Shown: positions 5,121-43,929 of the stretch, piece by piece | Numbering within the stretch: position 1 is the first letter of the stretch | Layout of the letters: every line of letters starts with the position of its first letter | DNA from: Streptomyces barringtoniae | Lineage (GTDB): Bacteria > Actinomycetota > Actinomycetes > Streptomycetales > Streptomycetaceae | Direction of reading: 5' to 3' | Assembly (NCBI RefSeq): GCF_020819595.1 | Contig: NZ_JAJHNP010000023.1 | Location: forward strand, 62,001-126,000 | Length of the DNA stretch: 64,000 nt | The notes under the pieces: model-generated | What the model was told of the DNA's origin: nothing | The model's input: only the letters and a program-made list of their open reading frames with translations | The model's database searches: none | Program-made: the position numbers and the translations under genes

Positions 5121-5954
5121 CTATTGGTCGTCGTTCGTGTCTGGCCTGTCAGTCACTTCGGGGACTCTATGCCCGGGAAGCAAGCGCTTCGCCGTTTCGT
5201 TGGCATCGGGTTTAAGGCCGAGCTGAGTCAGTGCCGCAGTGGTTTTAAGCTGATCCTTCAGCTTAGGGTCGTCGACTCGTTCTATTAGAGCCGTTGCTTT
5301 CCCGAAACGGTCATCTTCATCGATCTTGGCTGCAATTACTCCAGCCTCCTGGGTGACTCTATCTTCCTTCAGTCGGGCCTGGCGGTTCAGAACCCCGCCT
5401 GCCGTTGTGATCAAAGCGCCCGAAAGGCCGGTAACCAACTTTACATCCCTGCCACCGTCCCGGAAAGCGATGAGGGCTCCGCTGGTCAGGATGATAATGC
5501 CGCCAAGAATCATGAACCCTACGCTCACCCAGAACATCACTGTGGAGTGTGTAAGTAGGCGATTCAGGTATTCGAGGTGAAATTTTTGCCGTTGCTCGGG
5601 GAGTGGAGCGGGTTTCTCTTCTCCGGTAGGTATTTCAGCATTGGTGGTGCCGACGGCGAGGCTGCCAGCTTGGATGACAGCATTGTCGCCCGTCACTACA
5701 ATTCCGGAATTTGATTGGAATGCTGTCTTCGCCCAGATGTCACGCAAGCGGTGACCGGTCCCGAAAAACTGGTCTAATTTCACCGCTGCTTCGAGTGGCG
5801 GAAGCCTTAAACCGTGCTCTACTCTGCTCAGGTAATGCGCAGTGTACCCGGTCTCAGTGGCGACTCTCTTGAGAGGGAGATTCTTTTCATCTCGAATTCG
5901 TCGCATCTCCGAACCAAACAAAGACCTATCCGGTGGATCCGGTGTGGTTGGCAC
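5121..5954 (-). CDS. HTH (XRE-like) protein with two-TM TRADD-N-associated-type domain
   Basis: A 277-aa predicted membrane-anchored regulator. Residues 12-66 match a Cro/C1-type helix-turn-helix (RVATETGYTAHYLSRVEHG). Residues 83-102 form a glycine-punctuated hydrophobic strand segment (SGIVVTGDNAVIQAGSLAVG). Residues 120-195 contain a charged helix (HLEYLNRLLTH) and two membrane segments at about 138-163 and 173-190. This resembles the two-transmembrane domain reported beside TRADD-N-like modules in bacterial conflict proteins; that assignment is from memory. A soluble charged tail of about 80 residues follows. GTG start at 5954 with GGGGGG upstream. Base composition is lower in GC than the neighbours and it sits in the integrative island, so it was probably acquired by transfer. 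A DNA-binding domain at a membrane suggests sensing or defence regulation; no partner gene is adjacent. Confidence 0.7.
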   Translation of the reverse strand: MPTTPDPPDRSLFGSEMRRIRDEKNLPLKRVATETGYTAHYLSRVEHGLRLPPLEAAVKLDQFFGTGHRLRDIWAKTAFQSNSGIVVTGDNAVIQAGSLAVGTTNAEIPTGEEKPAPLPEQRQKFHLEYLNRLLTHSTVMFWVSVGFMILGGIIILTSGALIAFRDGGRDVKLVTGLSGALITTAGGVLNRQARLKEDRVTQEAGVIAAKIDEDDRFGKATALIERVDDPKLKDQLKTTAALTQLGLKPDANETAKRLLPGHRVPEVTDRPDTNDDQ

Positions 5955-6108
5955 GGGCGTCCCCCCTTGTGCAAGGCACTGTGGATCATGCGGGCCTGAG
6001 GTCTGTCAGCTTTCTGGCATCAGGCTAGCCGTTGACATCGACTGGCGGACAGCTTGGCGTATGGCGCGACTGCGGCCAGGCGGTGGAAGCCGCAGTACAT
6101 GAGCTGCC

Positions 6109-6134
6109 CTGACATCAGCCGTTGACATCAACAG
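6109..6134 (+). repeat. Paired 13-bp repeats with altered core (TGACATC)
   Basis: CTGACATCAGCCG followed by TTGACATCAACAG has exactly the 13-bp period of the other three pairs, but GACATC replaces GACGGC in both units. A further GTTGACATCGAC occurs at 6031. The concerted change suggests arm sites of a related integrase with different specificity. Confidence 0.5.
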
Positions 6135-6437: not shown

Positions 6438-7208
6438 TCAGCAGCCGGACACGGCAGTGCAGTTGTTGGGGACGTTGCCGCTCACCGTGGAACGGACCAG
6501 CGTCACGGTGCCGGCGAAGTTGAAGATGCCGCCACCGCTGATGGTCGCGGTGTTGTTCTGCACTGTGGAGCCGGTCAGCGTCAGCGAGCCGGAGTCATTG
6601 AAGATGCCGCCGCCGGTAGGGGCGCTGTTGTTCTGCACCGTGCTGCGGTCCAGAATCGCCATGCCGCTGTTGTAGATGCCGCCGCCACCGTCCGTCGCGG
6701 TGTTGTTCTGCACCACCGAGCTGGTCAGCATCAATGTGGAACCGCCGGTGCTGATGATGCCGCCGCCGCGAAAGGCGGTGTTGTTCTGCACCGTGGAGCG
6801 GGTCAGTGTCAGAGAGCCGTCGTTGAGGATGCCGCCGCCCAGGGTGGCAGAACCGTCCGTGATGACCAGGTTTCGCAGGGTCGCTTGGACGCCCGCGCGG
6901 ACGTCGACGGTGGTGCCGGCGTGGTTGCCGTCGAGGACCGCGTTTCTGAGACCGACCAGGGTCACAGTCTTGGCGAGGGTGAAGTTGCCGATGCACGTCC
7001 CCCGCACCCGCAGCGTCGCCCCTGGGGCGGCGGCGATGAGCGCGGGCTGCAGGGCGCCGGGGTTGGCGTCGCAGTCCACCATGGTGGGCTGCGCAACGGC
7101 GACGGGACTGGTGCCGAGGAGACCGACCGCCACTGCCCCCGCGCTTGCGATCACCGTCGTCGCTCTTACCCACCAGCGCCACAGTGCCCGATCCGCCCGC
7201 ATCACCAT
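6438..7208 (-). CDS. Secreted right-handed beta-helix repeat protein
   Basis: A 256-aa extracellular protein. The ATG at 7208 follows AGGAGAAGG at 6 nt; the in-frame reading further upstream is out of character. Residues 1-40 are a signal peptide with Arg/Trp-rich n-region and a hydrophobic core ending near SPVAVAQ. From about residue 95 the chain is built of repeated strands such as LTRSTVQNNTAFRGGGI, with GGGI(I/F/Y)N turns recurring five times. That is the signature of parallel beta-helix proteins of the polymorphic-repeat or pectate-lyase-like kind. No catalytic residues are evident, so a binding or surface role is more likely than an enzyme. Two cysteines near each end could close disulfides. 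It is cargo of the tRNA-Thr island. Confidence 0.8.
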   Translation of the reverse strand: MVMRADRALWRWWVRATTVIASAGAVAVGLLGTSPVAVAQPTMVDCDANPGALQPALIAAAPGATLRVRGTCIGNFTLAKTVTLVGLRNAVLDGNHAGTTVDVRAGVQATLRNLVITDGSATLGGGILNDGSLTLTRSTVQNNTAFRGGGIISTGGSTLMLTSSVVQNNTATDGGGGIYNSGMAILDRSTVQNNSAPTGGGIFNDSGSLTLTGSTVQNNTATISGGGIFNFAGTVTLVRSTVSGNVPNNCTAVSGC

Positions 7209-7588
7209 GTGCCTTCTCCTGTCTGTACCTGGCGAAGGACCATCGGCCCTGCCTGTCCGTTGTCCCCCTGGCCCTGCTTTCGTGCGCCGACTTTCTGCGA
7301 GCGCACCCACGGCCAGAACAACGGATGCCCTGGTCGGTGGTGGCCGCGGTGGTTGCGCCCCGCGCATCGCCCGGATGGGCGGGGGCAATGCCCGGTCTGG
7401 CCCACAGCCGCTCGGCGTGCAGGCGTTTCCTACGGGTACGCAGGGCGCGTGAGGGGCCCTGATCGGAGGCGGGTGTGGACAGGTCTCCTTCGAGGCGTTG
7501 AGCCCGGAATCAGGTGGAGCGGAGACGGCCACCACCCGACACCGACGGTCCCTGGCCAGGCTGTTCTCACCACGAGGTCGGCTCCGCG
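7209..7588. other. Gene-free right part of the island
   Basis: Only the leader of the beta-helix gene is recognised here. Open frames in this stretch are opposite-strand artefacts of GC-rich sequence. Confidence 0.5.
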
Positions 7589-7614
7589 TTGACGGCGGTC
7601 CTTGACGGCAACAG
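7589..7614 (+). repeat. Paired 13-bp repeats, possible integrase arm sites (right)
   Basis: TTGACGGCGGTCC followed by TTGACGGCAACAG lies about 92 bp before the right attachment core. It matches the left pair in period and core. Confidence 0.55.
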
Positions 7615-7705
7615 CGGTGGACGTCGCTGTATCCGGGGGCACTGTTGTGTACCTCGCGGGTCGGGCAAGCCGGCCCTATTCCTGGCCTGGCGACCGGCAG
7701 AAGGA

Positions 7706-7749
7706 TCTTGTAAAGCGAAGGTCGTCGGTTCGAATCCGACAGGGGGCTC
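7706..7749 (+). repeat. Attachment core at right end of island
   Basis: This is an exact 44-bp copy of the 3' part of tRNA-Thr (anticodon loop to 3' end). The preceding sequence is not tRNA 5' sequence, so no second functional tRNA is made. Together with 1604-1647 it bounds the island. The hairpin at 7757-7792 is probably the original chromosomal sequence behind the tRNA. Confidence 0.85.
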
Positions 7750-7756
7750 CAGACAA

Positions 7757-7792
7757 CCGGGCCGACCTGGGGTTTCCCTCGGGTCGGCCCGG
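7757..7792. terminator. Terminator between the att site and the FAD oxidoreductase
   Basis: An 11-bp perfect stem (CCGGGCCGACC and complement) with a 14-nt loop sits 14 nt past the oxidoreductase stop. It was likely the tRNA-Thr terminator before the island inserted. Confidence 0.7.
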
Positions 7793-7805
7793 TCGCGTCG
7801 GTCCT

Positions 7806-9212
7806 TCAGTGCCGCCCCGCCACGCGGTCCGCCGCCTTCGCCAGGCGGGAGGACTCCGTTCCCGGGCGCAGGCGTTCGCGCTGGTCGGCGGTGCGGTAGG
7901 TGGCGTACATGCCGTGGACGCCGAGCCAGCGGAAGGGTTCGGGCTCCCACTTGCGGACCTTGTGGTTGACCCAGGGCAGGTCGGTCAGCTCGGTGCGGCC
8001 GCCCTGGCCGGAGTCCTGTCGGACCAGGTCGCTCAGGGTGCGGGCGGCCAGGTTGGTGGTGGCGACGCCGGAGCCGACGTAGCCGCCGGCCCAGCCGAGG
8101 CCCGTGGAGCGGTCGAGGGTCACCGTGGCGCACCAGTCGCGGGGTACGCCGAGGACGCCCGACCAGGCGTGTGTCACGCGGACGCCGGCGAGGGCCGGGA
8201 AGAAGCGGGTCAGGATCTCCCGGAGGGCTTCGACGGTCGCCTCCTGCGTGCGGCCGTCGTTGTCCGTCCTCGATCCGAAGCGGTACGGGATGCCCCGGCC
8301 GCCGAGGGCGATGCGGCCGTCGGCGGTGCGCTGGGCGTACATGTAGGCGTGGGCCATGTCGCCGAGGGCTTCGCGGCCCTCCCAGCCGATGGCCGCCCAC
8401 TGGTCCTCGGTCAGCGGCTCGGTGGCGATCATGGAGGAGTTCATGGGGAGCCAGGTGCGCCGCTGGCCCTTCAGGGACGCGGTGAAGCCCTCGGTGCAGC
8501 GCAGGATGTACGGGGCGCGGACGGTGCCGTAGGGGGTGACGGCGTGCTTGGGGCGGATCTCGGTGACCGGGGTCGACTCGTGGATCGTGACGCCGAGGGC
8601 CTCCACCGCCGCCGCGAGGCCCTTGACCAGCTTGACGGGGTGCAGGCGGGCGCCGTGCGGGGTCCAGGTGGAGCCGACCGCGTCGGCGATGCGGATGCGT
8701 TCGGCGGTCTGCCGGGCGCCGTACAGTTCCCGGTCCTTCTCGCCGTACGACAGCTCGTGCTCGTGGAAGGCCTTCAGGCGGGCCAGTTGGGCGGGGGTGG
8801 TGGCCACTTCGAGGACGCCGCCTGTGTGGATGTCGGCGTCGATGCCCTCGGCCTCGGCCACCGCGACCACCTCGGCGACGGTGTCGTTCATCGCCTTCTG
8901 CAGGCGTACGGCGGCTTCGTGGCCGTGCAGCCGGGCGTACCGGTCGCGGCCGGCGATGCCGTTGTAGAGCCAGCCGCCGTTGCGGCCGGAGGCGCCGTAG
9001 CCGCAGAACTTCTGTTCCAGGACGGTGATGCGGAGGAAGGGGGCCGCCTTCTTCAGGTAGTACGCGGTCCACAGGCCGGTGTAGCCGCCGCCGATGATCG
9101 CGACGTCGGCGGTCGCGTCCCCGGGCAGTGGCTCGCGTACCGCGGGGAGGCCGTCGTCCGCGTACCAGAAGGAGATCCCGCCGTTGACGACACTGCTTGC
9201 CGAGCTGCTCAT
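7806..9212 (-). CDS. FAD-dependent amine/amino-acid oxidoreductase (DAO family)
   Basis: A 468-aa flavoenzyme that should oxidise a C-N bond of an amine or amino acid using FAD, in the cytoplasm. The dinucleotide fold motif GGGYTG is at residues 41-46, and a C-terminal AGGYVGSGVATTNLAARTLSDLV segment is the second FAD-contact region of the DadA/glycine-oxidase/PuuB group. The length fits gamma-glutamylputrescine-oxidase-like proteins, but no polyamine genes are adjacent, so the substrate is open. The start ATG at 9212 has TAACGT exactly 7 nt before it and no Shine-Dalgarno, which suggests a leaderless transcript. Confidence 0.8.
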   Translation of the reverse strand: MSSSASSVVNGGISFWYADDGLPAVREPLPGDATADVAIIGGGYTGLWTAYYLKKAAPFLRITVLEQKFCGYGASGRNGGWLYNGIAGRDRYARLHGHEAAVRLQKAMNDTVAEVVAVAEAEGIDADIHTGGVLEVATTPAQLARLKAFHEHELSYGEKDRELYGARQTAERIRIADAVGSTWTPHGARLHPVKLVKGLAAAVEALGVTIHESTPVTEIRPKHAVTPYGTVRAPYILRCTEGFTASLKGQRRTWLPMNSSMIATEPLTEDQWAAIGWEGREALGDMAHAYMYAQRTADGRIALGGRGIPYRFGSRTDNDGRTQEATVEALREILTRFFPALAGVRVTHAWSGVLGVPRDWCATVTLDRSTGLGWAGGYVGSGVATTNLAARTLSDLVRQDSGQGGRTELTDLPWVNHKVRKWEPEPFRWLGVHGMYATYRTADQRERLRPGTESSRLAKAADRVAGRH

Positions 9213-37995: not shown

Positions 37996-39726
<1,731 letters not shown>

Positions 39727-39816: not shown

Positions 39817-40461
39817 CTAGGTCCTCGGTGTGACCGCCACCGACAGCGTGTCGCCCGGCCTCAGCCTGTTGTAGAGCCATACGGCGTTCTTCGTGTCGAG
39901 GCCGATCCAGGCGCCGCGGGGGCCGCAGGCGAGTGAGCCGACGTAGAGGCTGGACCTGTCGGTGCCGCGCAGCTCGACCACGTACGGTTCGGCCACCTTG
40001 CAGGCGGACTTGGTGAGTCCGTAGGCCGTGTCCCGTGTGAGGTCGAGTTTCGCGGCGACGGTCAGCAGGCCGGCGGAGGGGCGGGTCGGGTAGCCCGAGG
40101 TGATGCGCATGACCCGGCCGTCGACGGTCAGGGCCCGCTTCTCGAAGTCCACCGTGCCGGTGACCGGGGTCGCGAGAGGGGTGGGGGTGGGAGTGGGGGA
40201 CGCCGGGAGCCGGGGAGCGGTGGCCGCCGGGGCCTGGCGGTGGGCCGGAGTGCCGTCGCCCGGGTTCAGCGCGAGTGCGAAGGCCGCCAGGGCGAGGGCC
40301 GCGGCGCCCGCGCCGAGGACGAGGACCGTGCGACGGCGGCGGCCCCGGCGGACGGCGCGGCGGCGGATCCCGGGAGCGCCGAGGGCCGGCGGGGTCTCGT
40401 TCGCCGTCGCCAACTCGCGGAGTGCGGTGGTCAGGTCGTCCGGGACGAGGTCATCCGACAC
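39817..40461 (-). CDS. Single-pass membrane protein, possible anti-sigma partner with L,D-transpeptidase-like exterior
   Basis: A 214-aa protein. Residues 1-40 are cytoplasmic and end in a strongly basic [12 protein letters not shown] run, about 41-60 is a transmembrane helix, followed by a Pro/Thr-rich spacer and an extracytoplasmic domain from about 95. That domain opens TGTVDFEKRALTVDGRVMRITSGYPTRPSAGLLTV and ends with ACGPRGAWIGLDTKNAVWLYNRLRPGDTLSV, which resembles a YkuD L,D-transpeptidase without the usual SHGC order; catalytic competence is doubtful. GTG at 40461 follows AAGGAGGG and overlaps the sigma-factor gene by 11 nt. The overlap suggests it controls that sigma factor, by inference. 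Confidence 0.6.
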   Translation of the reverse strand: MSDDLVPDDLTTALRELATANETPPALGAPGIRRRAVRRGRRRRTVLVLGAGAAALALAAFALALNPGDGTPAHRQAPAATAPRLPASPTPTPTPLATPVTGTVDFEKRALTVDGRVMRITSGYPTRPSAGLLTVAAKLDLTRDTAYGLTKSACKVAEPYVVELRGTDRSSLYVGSLACGPRGAWIGLDTKNAVWLYNRLRPGDTLSVAVTPRT

Positions 40462-40966
40462 GGCCGCCCTCCTTCCGTACCGGCTCATCGGCCTCGTCCG
40501 TGCCCAGCTGCTTCGCCAGTGCCGCCCGGCCCCGGGACAGCCGGGCCTTGACCGTGCCCACGGGCGCGCCGGTCTCGGAGGCTACCTGCTCGACACTCAA
40601 GTCGCACAGATGGTGCAGGACGATCGCCAACCGCTGCGCCTGGGGCAATTGGCGCAACGCGGCCACCAGGGCGGTGTGTTCGGGACCGGGGCCGGGAGTC
40701 GACTCGGGCGGCGTGTGCCGTCGCATCAGTTCCAGCCAGCGCCTGGCGCGCCGCCAGCGGCTGACCGCCAGCCGTACGGCGACCGTGCGGATCCAGGCCT
40801 CGGGGGCGCTGTCGGCCAGGAAGGACTTCCGCCGGTCCCAGGCGCGTACGAACGCCTCCTGCACCACGTCCTGGGCCTCGCCGTGGTCTCCGGTGAAGGC
40901 ATAGAGCTGCCCGGTCAGGCGGGGGAAGGCCGCCGCGTAGAAAGCGTCGAACTCGTCCTCGGTCAT
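40451..40966 (-). CDS. ECF sigma factor (SigE-family type)
   Basis: A 171-aa RNA polymerase sigma factor. Region 2 is FYAAAFPRLTGQLYAFTGDHGEAQDVVQEAFVRAWDRR, with the DVVQEAF core-binding motif; region 4 is LPQAQRLAIVLHHLCDLSVEQVASETGAPVGTVKARLSRGRAALAKQL. GGCGGAGGG precedes the ATG. The downstream gene encodes a membrane protein overlapping by 11 nt, a typical sigma/anti-sigma layout, although the partner has no recognised anti-sigma domain. Confidence 0.87.
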   Translation of the reverse strand: MTEDEFDAFYAAAFPRLTGQLYAFTGDHGEAQDVVQEAFVRAWDRRKSFLADSAPEAWIRTVAVRLAVSRWRRARRWLELMRRHTPPESTPGPGPEHTALVAALRQLPQAQRLAIVLHHLCDLSVEQVASETGAPVGTVKARLSRGRAALAKQLGTDEADEPVRKEGGRVG

Positions 40967-41134
40967 GCCCTCCGCCGGAGTCTTGCCGCGTCTTGCTGAG
41001 TCTTACCGGGTCTCTCTGCTGTCTTTCTGTGTCTTGCGTTTCCCGTGCAACCCGCCTGTCCCGCCCGTGCGTACAGGTCCCGTGGGCCGCGAGCGCGGCG
41101 TACATCGAAACACACGTGACCGAAGGAGAAGACG

Positions 41135-42199
41135 ATGCGGACGGGTGCCCGGATCCATGACGACTTCGCCGCCTGCGCGCGCGCCTGCTGGCCCCGGCTC
41201 CTCGTCACCGCGCGGTTGCTCACCGAGGACCTGCCCGAGGCGGAGGAACTGGCGCGGAGGACGCTGATACGGGTGTACGCGCGCTGGCGCCGCGTTCCGC
41301 GCAACGACGTCGACTTCCACGTACGGCGTCACCTCGTGCGGAGCCGGCTGCGGCGGCCGTGGCCGCTCGTGGGCCGTGCCGCCCGGCAGCGGGCCGTGCT
41401 GGTGCTGCGGTACGGCGAGGGGCTGCCGGACGCGCAGATCGGTCAGCTGCTCGGCATCTCCAAGGGCGCGGTGCGCCACGTCGCCAGGCGTGGGACGAAG
41501 GCGGCCGGGGGTGACGAACAGCGGCTGCGCGAGGCCTACGCCGCCGTGGCCGCTGACGTGGTTCCCGGCCCGCTCCCGCTGGACGCGGTGACCGCACGGG
41601 GGCGGGCGAGGCGGCGGCGCCGGGCCGCGGTGGCCGCCGGTGCCTGCGCGGTGGTGCTGGTGGCCGGGGGCTCCCTCGCCGTCGGCCGGATCGCCGGGAG
41701 CGGCCACGGTGAGTCGTCCGGTACGGCGGGCAGTCGGGCGGTGGGTTCCGTACGGATCGTGGCGCCCGGGGAGCGGGTGCAGGCGGCGCCCGGCGTGGAG
41801 ATGTGGCTGACCGCGGACGGCAGCCACTGGTCGACGCCGCAACAGGCCGACCAGTTCCGCGGGTTGGACGCCTACTCGCGCCACGAGCCGGGGGTGTCCC
41901 TGCAGGCGGAGCCGGTCGAGGGCAGGTACTTCCTGTCCGGCCTGTACTACGGCGTCACCGGGGACCCGGGACGCGTCGAGCTGAGCACCGGTCACCGTCG
42001 GGTCGCCGCCAAGGTGCTCACCCTGGCGGGCAGTCCCGGCTGGGGGGTCTGGTACGCGACCACGTCGCTGTCCGCACAGGACACCAAGGCGCTCATCGTC
42101 GAGGGTATGGAGAAGACCCGGGGCGGTGAGGGCGTCAGGGTGTACGACGCCGCGGGCGCCGTCGTGGCACGGCTGCGGAGCGGGGGGTGGTCGGCATGA
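41135..42199 (+). CDS. Sigma-factor-like domain fused to a TM helix and extracellular domain
   Basis: A 354-aa fusion. Residues 10-75 resemble sigma region 2 (WPRLLVTARLLTEDLPEAEELARRTLIRVYARW), but the core-binding DLVQ motif reads ELAR. Residues 80-125 are a good region 4 (RQRAVLVLRYGEGLPDAQIGQLLGISKGAVRHVARRG). A transmembrane helix lies at 164-184. The remaining 170 residues are outside the membrane and include VEMWLTADGSHWSTPQQADQF and GRYFLSGLYYGV; no family is recognised. GAAGGAGAAG precedes the ATG. The stop overlaps the next start (ATGA), so it is coupled to the penicillin-binding protein gene. It could be a membrane-held sigma factor or a DNA-binding sensor. Confidence 0.75.
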   Translation: MRTGARIHDDFAACARACWPRLLVTARLLTEDLPEAEELARRTLIRVYARWRRVPRNDVDFHVRRHLVRSRLRRPWPLVGRAARQRAVLVLRYGEGLPDAQIGQLLGISKGAVRHVARRGTKAAGGDEQRLREAYAAVAADVVPGPLPLDAVTARGRARRRRRAAVAAGACAVVLVAGGSLAVGRIAGSGHGESSGTAGSRAVGSVRIVAPGERVQAAPGVEMWLTADGSHWSTPQQADQFRGLDAYSRHEPGVSLQAEPVEGRYFLSGLYYGVTGDPGRVELSTGHRRVAAKVLTLAGSPGWGVWYATTSLSAQDTKALIVEGMEKTRGGEGVRVYDAAGAVVARLRSGGWSA

Positions 42200-43929
42200 C
42201 CCCGGAGCTCAAGGAGGAACCCACGGAGAGGCCCGAGGAGGAGCCCAGGGAGGGGCCCAGGGAGTGGCCCGAGGAGGAACCGCAGAAGGCGCCCAAGAAG
42301 GCGCCCAAGAAGGCGCGCGTACGCGCGAGTTCGCGGCGCGTCCCGTTCCGCGTCCGTCTGCGCCGCAACCGTGGCCGTATCGCGCGTCGCCTGCTGGTCG
42401 CCTTCCTTCTCCTGTTCGCCCTGCTGTGCGGGGCGGTCGTCGTGGCGTACAAGCTCACCGTCATTCCCGAGCCGCATCCAGACACGGTCGTCCAGAGCAC
42501 CGTCTTCCTCGACGAGAAGGGCGCCTACCTGGGCCGCCGCGGTCCGGTCGACCGTCAGGAAGTGCCGCTGTCGCAGGTCCCGCGGTATGTGCAGGACGCG
42601 GTGATCGCCGCAGAGAACCGTTCCTTCCGGACCGACTCCGGCGTGTCCCCGAAGGCCCTCGTCCGTGCCGTCGCGGCGGCGCTGATCGGCGGCGAACGGC
42701 AGGGCGGCTCCACCATCACCCAGCAGTACGTCAAGAACGCGCTGCTCAGCCCCGAGCAGACCCTGTCACGCAAGGCGCGCGAGGCGCTGATCGCGGTCAA
42801 GCTGGACCGCACGCGCTCCAAGGACGAGATCCTGGAGGGCTACCTCAACACCGTGTACTTCGGCCGGGGCGCCGCCGGCATCCAGTCGGCCGCGCGCAAC
42901 TACTTCGACGTCGACACCAGGAACCTCACGGTCTCCCAGGGTGCGGCCCTGGCCGCCATCATCAACCTCCCCTCCTACTACGAGAAGGCCGGCTCGGACC
43001 CGAAGGTCACGGCGACGCTCCAGAAGCGCTGGGAGTGGGTGCTGGACGCGATGGCGTCGAGCGGGGACATCACGGCGAAACAGCGCTCCGGGGCCCGCTT
43101 CCCGGCGTTCCGGTTCTATCCGCCGGGGGCGACCGACGGGCAGCGGCAGTACCTGATCGACGTCGCGGCGAAAGAGGCCGCCGACCGGCTCGGCATCAGC
43201 GAGGACCAGCTGGCGCGCGGCGGCTACACCGTGCGCACCACCTTCGACCTCCCCCTGCAGGTCTCCACGGCGGAACTGGTCAAGGGGCAGACGGCAGGCA
43301 AGGGGGTACGGCTGCACACCGCCGTCGTGGGCATGGAGCCCGGCGACGGTGCGGTGCGGGTGCTGTACGGGGGGTCGGACTACGCCCGGCAACCCTTCAA
43401 CGACGCGGTGAGCGGGGCGGTGGAGGCGGGTACGGTGATGACGCCGCTGGAGAGGATGCCGTTCGGGGCGCCGCTGACCGGGTTCCCGAAGACGGCCGCG
43501 CCCACTCCGCTGAGGCTCACGTCGGCGTACGCGGCGGTCGCGGCCGACGGCATGTACGCCGCGCCGTACACCGTCGCCCGTATCACCCGCGACGGCCGCA
43601 CCGTCTACTCCGCGCATCCCGACCGCCACCGGGTCCTGCCCGGGCAGGCGGCCCGCACGGCGGCCACGCCGCTCCAGGCCGGTGCCGGGGCCACCCCGGT
43701 CGCAGGCCCTCCGGCGAGCCTGTTCACGGCGGGAGCGGGCGGCGGCATCACCCGTCGCACGGTGTGGACCGTCGCCTACGACGCCCGGCTCACCCTGACC
43801 GTCACCCTCTTCGCCGACAAGCCGGGCAAGAAGAAGGACACGACGGTGCCTGCGCAGCTGCCGGCGGATCCCTCACCGACAGGGTTCACGGAACAGACGG
43901 CGACCCAGCTCTGGGGTCGCTTGAGGTGA
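42196..43929 (+). CDS. Class-A PBP-like glycosyltransferase with degenerate transpeptidase domain
   Basis: A 577-aa membrane protein that should polymerise lipid II. Residues 1-60 are a charged Pro/Glu/Lys cytoplasmic tail, 64-86 the anchor, 130-270 a GT51 domain. In GT51, motif 1 reads AAENRSFRTDSG (Glu kept, usual Asp and His replaced), motif 2 GGSTITQQYVKN and motif 3 SRKAREALIAVKLD are normal. The transpeptidase part is damaged: at 411-418 AGTVMTPL stands where GSTFKP (catalytic Ser and Lys) is expected, about 80 residues of the domain core are missing, and no KTG is found (ITRRTVWTVAYD instead). So cross-linking activity is very unlikely. ATG 42196 overlaps the upstream stop. Confidence 0.8.
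   Translation: MTPELKEEPTERPEEEPREGPREWPEEEPQKAPKKAPKKARVRASSRRVPFRVRLRRNRGRIARRLLVAFLLLFALLCGAVVVAYKLTVIPEPHPDTVVQSTVFLDEKGAYLGRRGPVDRQEVPLSQVPRYVQDAVIAAENRSFRTDSGVSPKALVRAVAAALIGGERQGGSTITQQYVKNALLSPEQTLSRKAREALIAVKLDRTRSKDEILEGYLNTVYFGRGAAGIQSAARNYFDVDTRNLTVSQGAALAAIINLPSYYEKAGSDPKVTATLQKRWEWVLDAMASSGDITAKQRSGARFPAFRFYPPGATDGQRQYLIDVAAKEAADRLGISEDQLARGGYTVRTTFDLPLQVSTAELVKGQTAGKGVRLHTAVVGMEPGDGAVRVLYGGSDYARQPFNDAVSGAVEAGTVMTPLERMPFGAPLTGFPKTAAPTPLRLTSAYAAVAADGMYAAPYTVARITRDGRTVYSAHPDRHRVLPGQAARTAATPLQAGAGATPVAGPPASLFTAGAGGGITRRTVWTVAYDARLTLTVTLFADKPGKKKDTTVPAQLPADPSPTGFTEQTATQLWGRLR

Follow-up and report, generated by a model that had tools for sequence, protein, structure and literature searches.

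A conserved four-gene block of Streptomyces barringtoniae as a candidate cell-wall stress module combining an intact and a ruined sigma system

In a 64,000-nucleotide stretch of Streptomyces barringtoniae DNA (contig NZ_JAJHNP010000023.1, positions 62,001 to 126,000; hereafter the window), four adjacent genes form a conserved unit that is best explained as a cell-wall stress module made of one intact and one ruined sigma system. An extracytoplasmic function (ECF) sigma factor, ECF1, and an anti-sigma-like protein, ASF1, are encoded on the minus strand. Diverging from them on the plus strand across a 168-base intergenic region are SIGTM, a probable pseudo-sigma factor in which a decayed ECF sigma factor (called ECF2 where unfused) is fused to its former transmembrane (TM) partner (ASF2) with an exterior domain (EXT), and a penicillin-binding protein (PBP) with a ruined transpeptidase domain, here called the pseudo-PBP. 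The SIGTM stop overlaps the ATG of the pseudo-PBP as ATGA, through which the two are likely translationally coupled. An earlier note on this DNA, made by a model from the letters and the open reading frames (ORFs), had described these coordinates, the divergent arrangement, and the stop/start overlap, and all were found as described when the sequence was re-read. The features are as follows, with the evidence for each in brackets.

39817..40488, minus strand: ASF1, anti-sigma-like protein with a short cytoplasmic segment, one hydrophobic helix (by inspection), and an L,D-transpeptidase-like exterior without HGC (profile of orthologues, motif comparison)
40451..40966, minus strand: ECF1, ECF sigma factor, intact, TIGR02983 (SigE family), overlapping ASF1 (TIGR02983 score, dN/dS)
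41046..41075, plus strand: promoter-like site TGCAACC-N14-GTGCGTACA, reading into the SIGTM-PBP operon, probably an ECF1 promoter (intergenic conservation)
41135..42199, plus strand: SIGTM, 354 aa, decayed ECF2 sigma fused to its former TM/exterior partner, a probable pseudo-sigma (comparison with unfused ECF2 and ASF2; AlphaFold2 model)
41156..41344, plus strand: remnant of sigma region 2 in SIGTM, residues 8-70, with Arg in place of the region 2.2 Gln (sequence comparison)
41372..41500, plus strand: SIGTM sigma region 4 remnant, residues 80-122, after an 8-aa linker vs about 40 (Pfam, sequence comparison)
41504..41578, plus strand: SIGTM cytoplasmic anti-sigma-like segment, residues 124-148 (hhalign against the ASF1 segment; model helix 128-141)
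41579..41674, plus strand: SIGTM membrane helix region, model helix 149-180 (AlphaFold2 model; hydrophobic run by inspection)
41750..42196, plus strand: EXT, the SIGTM exterior domain, residues 206-354, predicted Ig-like beta sandwich (AlphaFold2 model; no Pfam match in the window protein)
42196..42199, plus strand: ATGA stop/start overlap of SIGTM and the pseudo-PBP, likely translational coupling (sequence)
42196..43929, plus strand: pseudo-PBP, 577 aa (GT51 match, transpeptidase remnant)
42544..43053, plus strand: GT51 glycosyltransferase (GT) domain of the pseudo-PBP, residues 117-286, Glu140 and Glu196 kept (Pfam, 7.7e-57)
43213..43926, plus strand: transpeptidase remnant of the pseudo-PBP, residues 340-577, without SxxK, SxN, and the aligned KTG (alignments)

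The suggested co-conservation of the four genes across Streptomyces was borne out in a sample of 150 Streptomyces genomes, which served for the SIGTM, pseudo-PBP, and ECF1 counts alike. SIGTM-like matches were found in 25 genomes (E ≤ 1e-20), pseudo-PBPs in 19 (E ≤ 1e-140), and ECF1 in 57 (E ≤ 1e-50). Eighteen of the 19 pseudo-PBPs adjoin SIGTM or its unfused parts within a few kb of ECF1, so that 18 of the 19 genomes hold the block, and in the 19th (G001) a contig edge falls at the PBP start. The remaining seven of the 25 SIGTM-like genomes carry EXT genes, mostly with ECF2 and with no pseudo-PBP match. From the family sample, 16 loci were fetched, and the pseudo-PBP is present in five (L072-L075 and L077), each time with the whole block. 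In the family sample, the EXT profile matched 50 of 200 genomes, spread over 7 of 17 genera; in the phylum sample it matched just 4 of 296, each belonging to the window's genus. No internal stop was found in any of the 21 fusions or the 24 pseudo-PBPs checked; a further PBP, in L009, is frameshifted. With the gene block conserved and its frames kept open, chance neighbourhood was rejected. For these comparisons, genes were called from GC by codon position and Shine-Dalgarno sequences, and some starts were misjudged; the coordinates of BLAST hits were used instead of the called starts in L013 (ASF1), L025 (ECF2), L075, and L077. The ASF2 of L027 and the ASF1 of L020 were excluded from alignments, and L011, a duplicate of L007, was removed from later comparisons.

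SIGTM had been read in the earlier note as a sigma-like domain, a TM helix, and an exterior domain in one chain. The single chain stands; its sigma part departs from a normal sigma domain, having lost the region 2.2 Gln, the region 2.4 NNN, and most of the linker. Per Pfam, sigma region 4 is recognised at residues 83-120 (E = 1.3e-8) and region 2 has no match at E ≤ 1; against TIGR02983, the protein aligns in two stretches for 85.3 bits, below the curated cut-off of 141.55. The sigma parts of 21 fusions were compared with 18 unfused ECF2 proteins and with ECF1 from 16 of 41 ECF1 loci. The region 2.2 Gln is kept in 17/18 unfused ECF2 and 16/16 ECF1, and is lost in 21/21 fusions, with Arg in 20, including the window, and His in one (L075). 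Of the 17 Gln-bearing ECF2, 13 also carry NNN in region 2.4, which none of the 21 fusions does. The linker is 40-43 aa long in the 17 Gln-bearing ECF2 and 38-41 aa in ECF1; it is 6-18 aa in 17 of the 21 fusions (8 aa in the window) and 31-47 aa in the other four. The exception is the ECF2 of L072, which is unfused yet decayed, with Arg, a 20-aa linker, and no NNN. In the fusion at L032:3111-4265, the linker of 47 aa is partly Gly/His-rich and unlike that of ECF2. Weak Pfam matches to PhyR sigma models were obtained for 11 and 5 of 42 members, which are unspecified, and were not used as support.

In sigma-70 and sigma-32, the region 2.2 Gln makes contact with the core enzyme, and changing it to Arg in sigma-32 reportedly weakens core binding. 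Judged from its sequence, SIGTM is without the features of a working sigma factor and is probably not one. At the level of sequence, SIGTM does not pass the earlier note's own check for a surface that would contact RNA polymerase, though its neighbours are conserved with it, and a normal membrane-tethered sigma factor was rejected as a candidate because the region 2.2 Gln, the region 2.4 motif, and the linker are lost. SIGTM might still be a sigma factor that is freed by proteolysis, as IutY is or as has been proposed for SCO4117; such proteins are a known kind, with IutY and ECF52 described in excerpts of PMC8999054 and PMC5826349, and we regard this as very improbable for SIGTM given the same three losses and the score under the TIGR02983 cut-off.

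The sigma part nonetheless looks constrained. Ratios of nonsynonymous to synonymous substitutions (dN/dS) were pooled by the Nei-Gojobori method in each of three clades, and only the order of the values is used here because their ranges partly overlap and, in DNA rich in GC, the method is crude. Lowest in the SIGTM-PBP operon is the GT domain (0.15, 0.20, and 0.11 in the three clades); ECF1 gave 0.11, 0.15, and 0.22, SIGTM region 4 0.26, 0.25, and 0.35, SIGTM region 2 0.37, 0.37, and 0.41, the transpeptidase remnant 0.60, 0.36, and 0.35, EXT 0.89, 0.54, and 0.52, and the N-tail of the PBP 1.20, 0.84, and 1.47. A flanking gene, as a control, gave pairwise values of 0.18-0.47 in the window's clade. 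Since all 21 frames are open and the values lie below those of the near-neutral PBP tail, the remnant looks not to be simply dying. A non-functional relic, carried along by the TM/EXT part, would fit the stepwise decay from L021 to the window and the lack of a sigma part in L009, and is hard to square with the open frames (21/21) and with remnant values under the PBP tail in 3/3 clades; we consider it improbable.

The earlier note's description of the operon's second product, a GT51 protein with a ruined transpeptidase, holds. The pseudo-PBP matches Pfam GT51 (192 bits, 7.7e-57) and has no Pfam transpeptidase match. All 20 aligned orthologues (20/20) lack SxxK and carry GAG where KTG would align, and about 90 residues including SxN are missing in the four pseudo-PBPs compared with two ordinary PBPs of the same genome (4/4). 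The pseudo-PBP of L072 keeps the Ser of SxxK and not the Lys. That of L019 (7558-9324) contains an unaligned KTGTT in a variable stretch before the aligned site, which itself reads GAG. The GT51 residues Glu140 and Glu196 are invariant in 20/20 pseudo-PBPs; a ruined GT51 motif 1 (Glu-Asn for Glu-Asp) was considered and rejected, as the two ordinary PBPs of the genome whose motif was read out also have Glu-Asn. Because the catalytic Glu residues are kept and no part of the operon is more constrained than the GT domain (dN/dS 0.11-0.20), the pseudo-PBP is probably an enzyme and output, which is more likely than a sensor. The suggestion that degenerate wall enzymes act as sensors was thus retained for the ASF1 exterior, which sits where a sensor would be expected, and rejected for the pseudo-PBP, whose GT domain is intact and constrained. 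As the genome has six GT51 genes, the pseudo-PBP is an addition. Having lost the motifs of a working transpeptidase, it should offer beta-lactams no target, with GT activity presumed from the kept residues.

SIGTM could also be mainly a partner of the pseudo-PBP, with EXT activating or positioning the glycosyltransferase on the outside and the sigma remnant serving as a folded cytoplasmic cap or dock. The ATGA overlap, the 18/18 resolvable adjacencies, and L009, where EXT adjoins a frameshifted pseudo-PBP without any sigma part, all speak for this, and we take it seriously even though we judge it unlikely. Against it, the sigma remnant has lower dN/dS point estimates than EXT in 3/3 clades (with overlapping ranges), and EXT is present without a PBP match in 10/10 loci from other genera (L062-L071).

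The divergent sigma gene had been called a normal ECF sigma factor, and this agrees with its score: ECF1 reaches 179.4 bits against TIGR02983, above the curated cut-off of 141.55, and is likely a working sigma. For the single-pass protein that overlaps it, the L,D-transpeptidase-like exterior was upheld as a profile likeness, and the protein is rather anti-sigma-like and lacks the catalytic HGC motif. A profile of 22 ASF1 orthologues matches M. tuberculosis LdtMt3 (5.7e-9), and YkuD was detected at E ≤ 1 in 10 of the 22 members (best 1.8e-9), the window's own ASF1 not being among them. Any HG[CST] occurs in only one of the 22 (L025), near the membrane in the alignment, vs THGC in 10/10 L,D-transpeptidase (LDT) genes beside ECF1. 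By these motifs, the ASF1 exterior reads as a dead (degenerate) L,D-transpeptidase, and we infer a role for it as a wall sensor.

In the divergent region, TGCAACC and GTGCGTA are invariant in 19/19 aligned regions, where the mean column identity is 26% and other blocks are only moderately conserved. Where a known envelope gene diverges from ECF1, the core motif GCAACC-GTGCGTA is present in 32/32 loci, vs 1/9 (L044) where none does. The motif occurs once in the window's own 9.04-Mb genome, with 0.01 expected in the window. Of 18 genomes scanned, the 15 with ECF1 all have the motif at ECF1 and the three without ECF1 have none; further sites across the 18 number 6 vs 10 for a reversed control pattern. 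Because of this conserved site, it is strongly indicated that ECF1 acts on the operon, essentially as its single target. ECF1, rather than ECF2, is the likely reader, since the site persists at L042, L043, and L047, whose genomes (G081, G016, and G080) gave no SIGTM/EXT-type match.

The same region bears on a further alternative, in which SIGTM, tethered to the membrane, regulates by binding DNA through the region 4 helix-turn-helix alone. Region 4 is its best recognised part (Pfam 1.3e-8) with dN/dS of 0.25-0.35, which would suit such a role. As only the ECF1-type motif is invariant in the divergent region, with other blocks moderate, and region 2 also appears constrained, we consider this reading rather improbable.

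Two ECF1 loci without known partner genes, L044 and L045, have the motif and a near-motif, respectively, each beside another secreted-looking gene. In L044, ECF1 is flanked on each side by a 139-aa secreted-looking ORF (5694-6110 and 7438-7854), the two copies having identical translations and opposite orientations, which represents either an inverted duplication or an assembly artefact; the copy at 7438 is downstream of the ECF1-type motif at 7071.

Comparison of loci suggests how the second sigma system was assembled. ECF1-ASF1 is found without such a neighbour in L036-L040 and with a divergent L,D-transpeptidase gene in L041-L043, L046, and L047; this true L,D-transpeptidase in the same divergent place bears out the cell-wall link that the earlier note had proposed. 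Beside ECF1-ASF1, L034 has LDT and a secreted EXT protein, and L025 has LDT, EXT, ECF2, and ASF2 (L035 is truncated by a contig end). Unfused operons of LDT, secreted EXT, ECF2, ASF2, and pseudo-PBP are present in L021 and L033, and ECF2, ASF2, and PBP in L072. LDT with the fusion and PBP is seen in L031, the fusion and PBP in L022, L029, and L032, and the fusion with a short linker and PBP in L007, L008, L010, L012-L020, L073-L075, L077, and the window. ASF2 is a TM protein whose exterior domain is the same as that of SIGTM, and in L021 it overlaps the ECF2 end by 4 bases. EXT-ECF2-ASF2 operons also exist away from ECF1 (L023, L024, L026-L028, and L076) and in other genera (L062-L067). By these comparisons, SIGTM arose from an ordinary ECF factor, ECF2, fused to its adjacent TM partner, ASF2.

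Two PBP trees were made, the first rooted by choice on L021/L033 and the second on two other PBPs. In both, the decayed group, including the unfused L072, splits from the intact L021/L033 (support 1.0 and 0.99). Because L072 is unfused and decayed and groups with the fusions, apart from L021/L033, sigma decay began before fusion. All fused loci form a split in only the first tree (0.98), and thus fusion may have happened once or twice.

Two further arrangements were seen. L009 (5838-8130) encodes a secreted EXT protein and then a pseudo-PBP that is frameshifted near its start. The two are not separated by a sigma part, and an ORF that by inspection looks recombinase-like lies nearby. In L071 (4385-7003), from another genus, an L,D-transpeptidase gene is followed by ECF2-like and EXT-like genes with no PBP match, and because of this the LDT-EXT link may be older than the pseudo-PBP.

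The AlphaFold2 model of SIGTM (predicted local distance difference test, pLDDT, 87; predicted template modelling score, pTM, 0.55) has a compact sigma part, a helix at 128-141, a long helix at 149-180, and then EXT. Its sigma part resembles SigW-RsiW (Z 14.6, root-mean-square deviation, rmsd, 2.7 over 124) and PhyR (4qic_C; Z 13.6, rmsd 2.6 over 117). Sigmas bound to polymerase superimpose on the model either through region 2 alone (best rmsd 1.1 over 72-73) or, over the whole, at an rmsd of about 27. The cytoplasmic segment of SIGTM/ASF2 resembles that of ASF1 (hhalign probability 91, E = 1e-6, from 16 and 12 chosen rows). EXT modelled alone (pLDDT 88, pTM 0.85) is an Ig-like sandwich. By sequence, EXT retrieved no relative of known structure (best E 0.024, to a designed protein), in Pfam it had no match in the window protein, and by fold it had no specific match, only common Ig-like ones (best Z 6.2).

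We propose that the module is an ECF1/ASF1 wall-stress switch which induces a transpeptidase-free polymerase and a membrane pseudo-sigma, and hold this model as a whole at somewhat under an even chance. At rest, ASF1 would hold ECF1, its dead L,D-transpeptidase exterior reading the state of the peptidoglycan. Upon a signal, ECF1 would be freed and transcribe essentially one target, the divergent operon. One product would be a glycan polymerase without a working transpeptidase, and the other SIGTM, a membrane-anchored pseudo-sigma with an anti-sigma-like segment and an outward-facing EXT. By binding either the ASF1 anti-sigma segment or the one in its own chain, the sigma fold of SIGTM would set the level of free ECF1, gated by EXT. 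Such cross-binding is plausible because the cytoplasmic segments of ASF1 and SIGTM are similar. This mimicry is the weakest step, resting on predicted fold, similarity, and constraint, and we put it forward tentatively, as a step that could well be wrong. Historically, the target of ECF1/ASF1 would once have been an L,D-transpeptidase in some relatives and is here the SIGTM-polymerase operon; ECF2/ASF2 would have joined as a second pair, lost its sigma features, and fused. The full sequence of events, in which the sigma first lost its core-binding and promoter-reading features, was fused to its own anti-sigma, and is now a mimic tuning a second pair whose sensor is a dead L,D-transpeptidase, with the operon's polymerase beta-lactam-proof, is a rather doubtful reconstruction.

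Several points weigh against this proposal. L009 has EXT and a frameshifted pseudo-PBP without the sigma part between, and four of the 21 fusions keep a linker of 31-47 aa. The dN/dS estimates are simple Nei-Gojobori values in GC-rich DNA with partly overlapping bootstrap ranges; in the groEL clade, region 2 spans 0.19-0.89 vs 0.55-2.90 for the N-tail. The compact fold is not special, the best match of the model being free SigG1 (Z 16.0), with SigJ also found (Z 12.3); since both are compact when free, compactness alone does not prove mimicry. The cytoplasmic segments compared are short and Arg-rich, which can inflate hhalign, and their rows were chosen. Finally, S. coelicolor sigma-E promoters have similar -35 elements, per an excerpt of PMC6767563, and another ECF factor might read the site.

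The earlier note's statement that no system of this form had been described was too broad. Membrane sigma/anti-sigma fusions are described in excerpts of PMC8999054 and PMC5826349, namely IutY (P. putida), ECF52 (SCO4117), ECF53, ECF48, and ECF36, and like IutY and ECF52, SIGTM combines a sigma domain, a membrane anti-sigma-like part, and an exterior in one chain. Unlike those fusions, its sigma part is without the region 2.2 Gln and the full linker, and SIGTM overlaps a pseudo-PBP gene and is probably controlled by another sigma factor. Unlike in ECF52, no zinc finger or carbohydrate module was matched in the window SIGTM by Pfam at E ≤ 1, and none is among the 25 of 31 Pfam families listed for the 42-member set. 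The pseudo-PBP shares an intact GT51 domain and a membrane anchor with class A PBPs and monofunctional glycosyltransferases and, unlike either, keeps about 240 residues of dead transpeptidase. PhyR, an alphaproteobacterial anti-anti-sigma response regulator, is the known case of sigma mimicry; the SIGTM model likewise has a compact sigma fold apparently not used as a sigma, and differs in being a membrane protein without a receiver domain (Pfam scan, E ≤ 1). In the sigma-V/RsiV system, the exterior of the anti-sigma RsiV reads a wall-related signal, lysozyme; the ASF1 exterior would also read such a signal and, unlike RsiV, appears to be a dead L,D-transpeptidase. The S. coelicolor sigma-E controls L,D-transpeptidases and PBPs, per the excerpt of PMC6767563, and ECF1 resembles it in its tie to LDT/PBP genes and in similar -35 elements. 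Whereas sigma-E lacks an anti-sigma and governs a broad regulon, ECF1 is paired with ASF1 and apparently serves a single target. Searches of open-licence literature turned up no pseudo-PBP coupled to a decayed fusion of sigma and anti-sigma, no dead L,D-transpeptidase serving as the exterior of an anti-sigma, nothing fitting on pseudo-sigma or degenerate sigma factors, and nothing specific on L,D-transpeptidases together with ECF factors.

If the proposal is true, SIGTM would be a transcription factor that has become a membrane signalling part, an unusual case. Living relatives display the apparent steps, from an intact ECF2 operon through a captured pseudo-PBP, decay, and fusion to the membrane partner to linker loss, and so illustrate how a transcription factor can cease being one. 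The module would also look like an ECF system serving one promoter, in which a dead L,D-transpeptidase is the presumed sensor and the output is a glycan polymerase lacking a working transpeptidase; it could help explain Streptomyces survival under wall antibiotics, and makes sigma mimicry outside PhyR testable.

Outside the module, groEL (window 38104-39726) adjoins it, among the loci compared, only in the window's clade (L007, L008, L010, and L011), and other genes flank it elsewhere, which suggests that either the module or groEL has moved.

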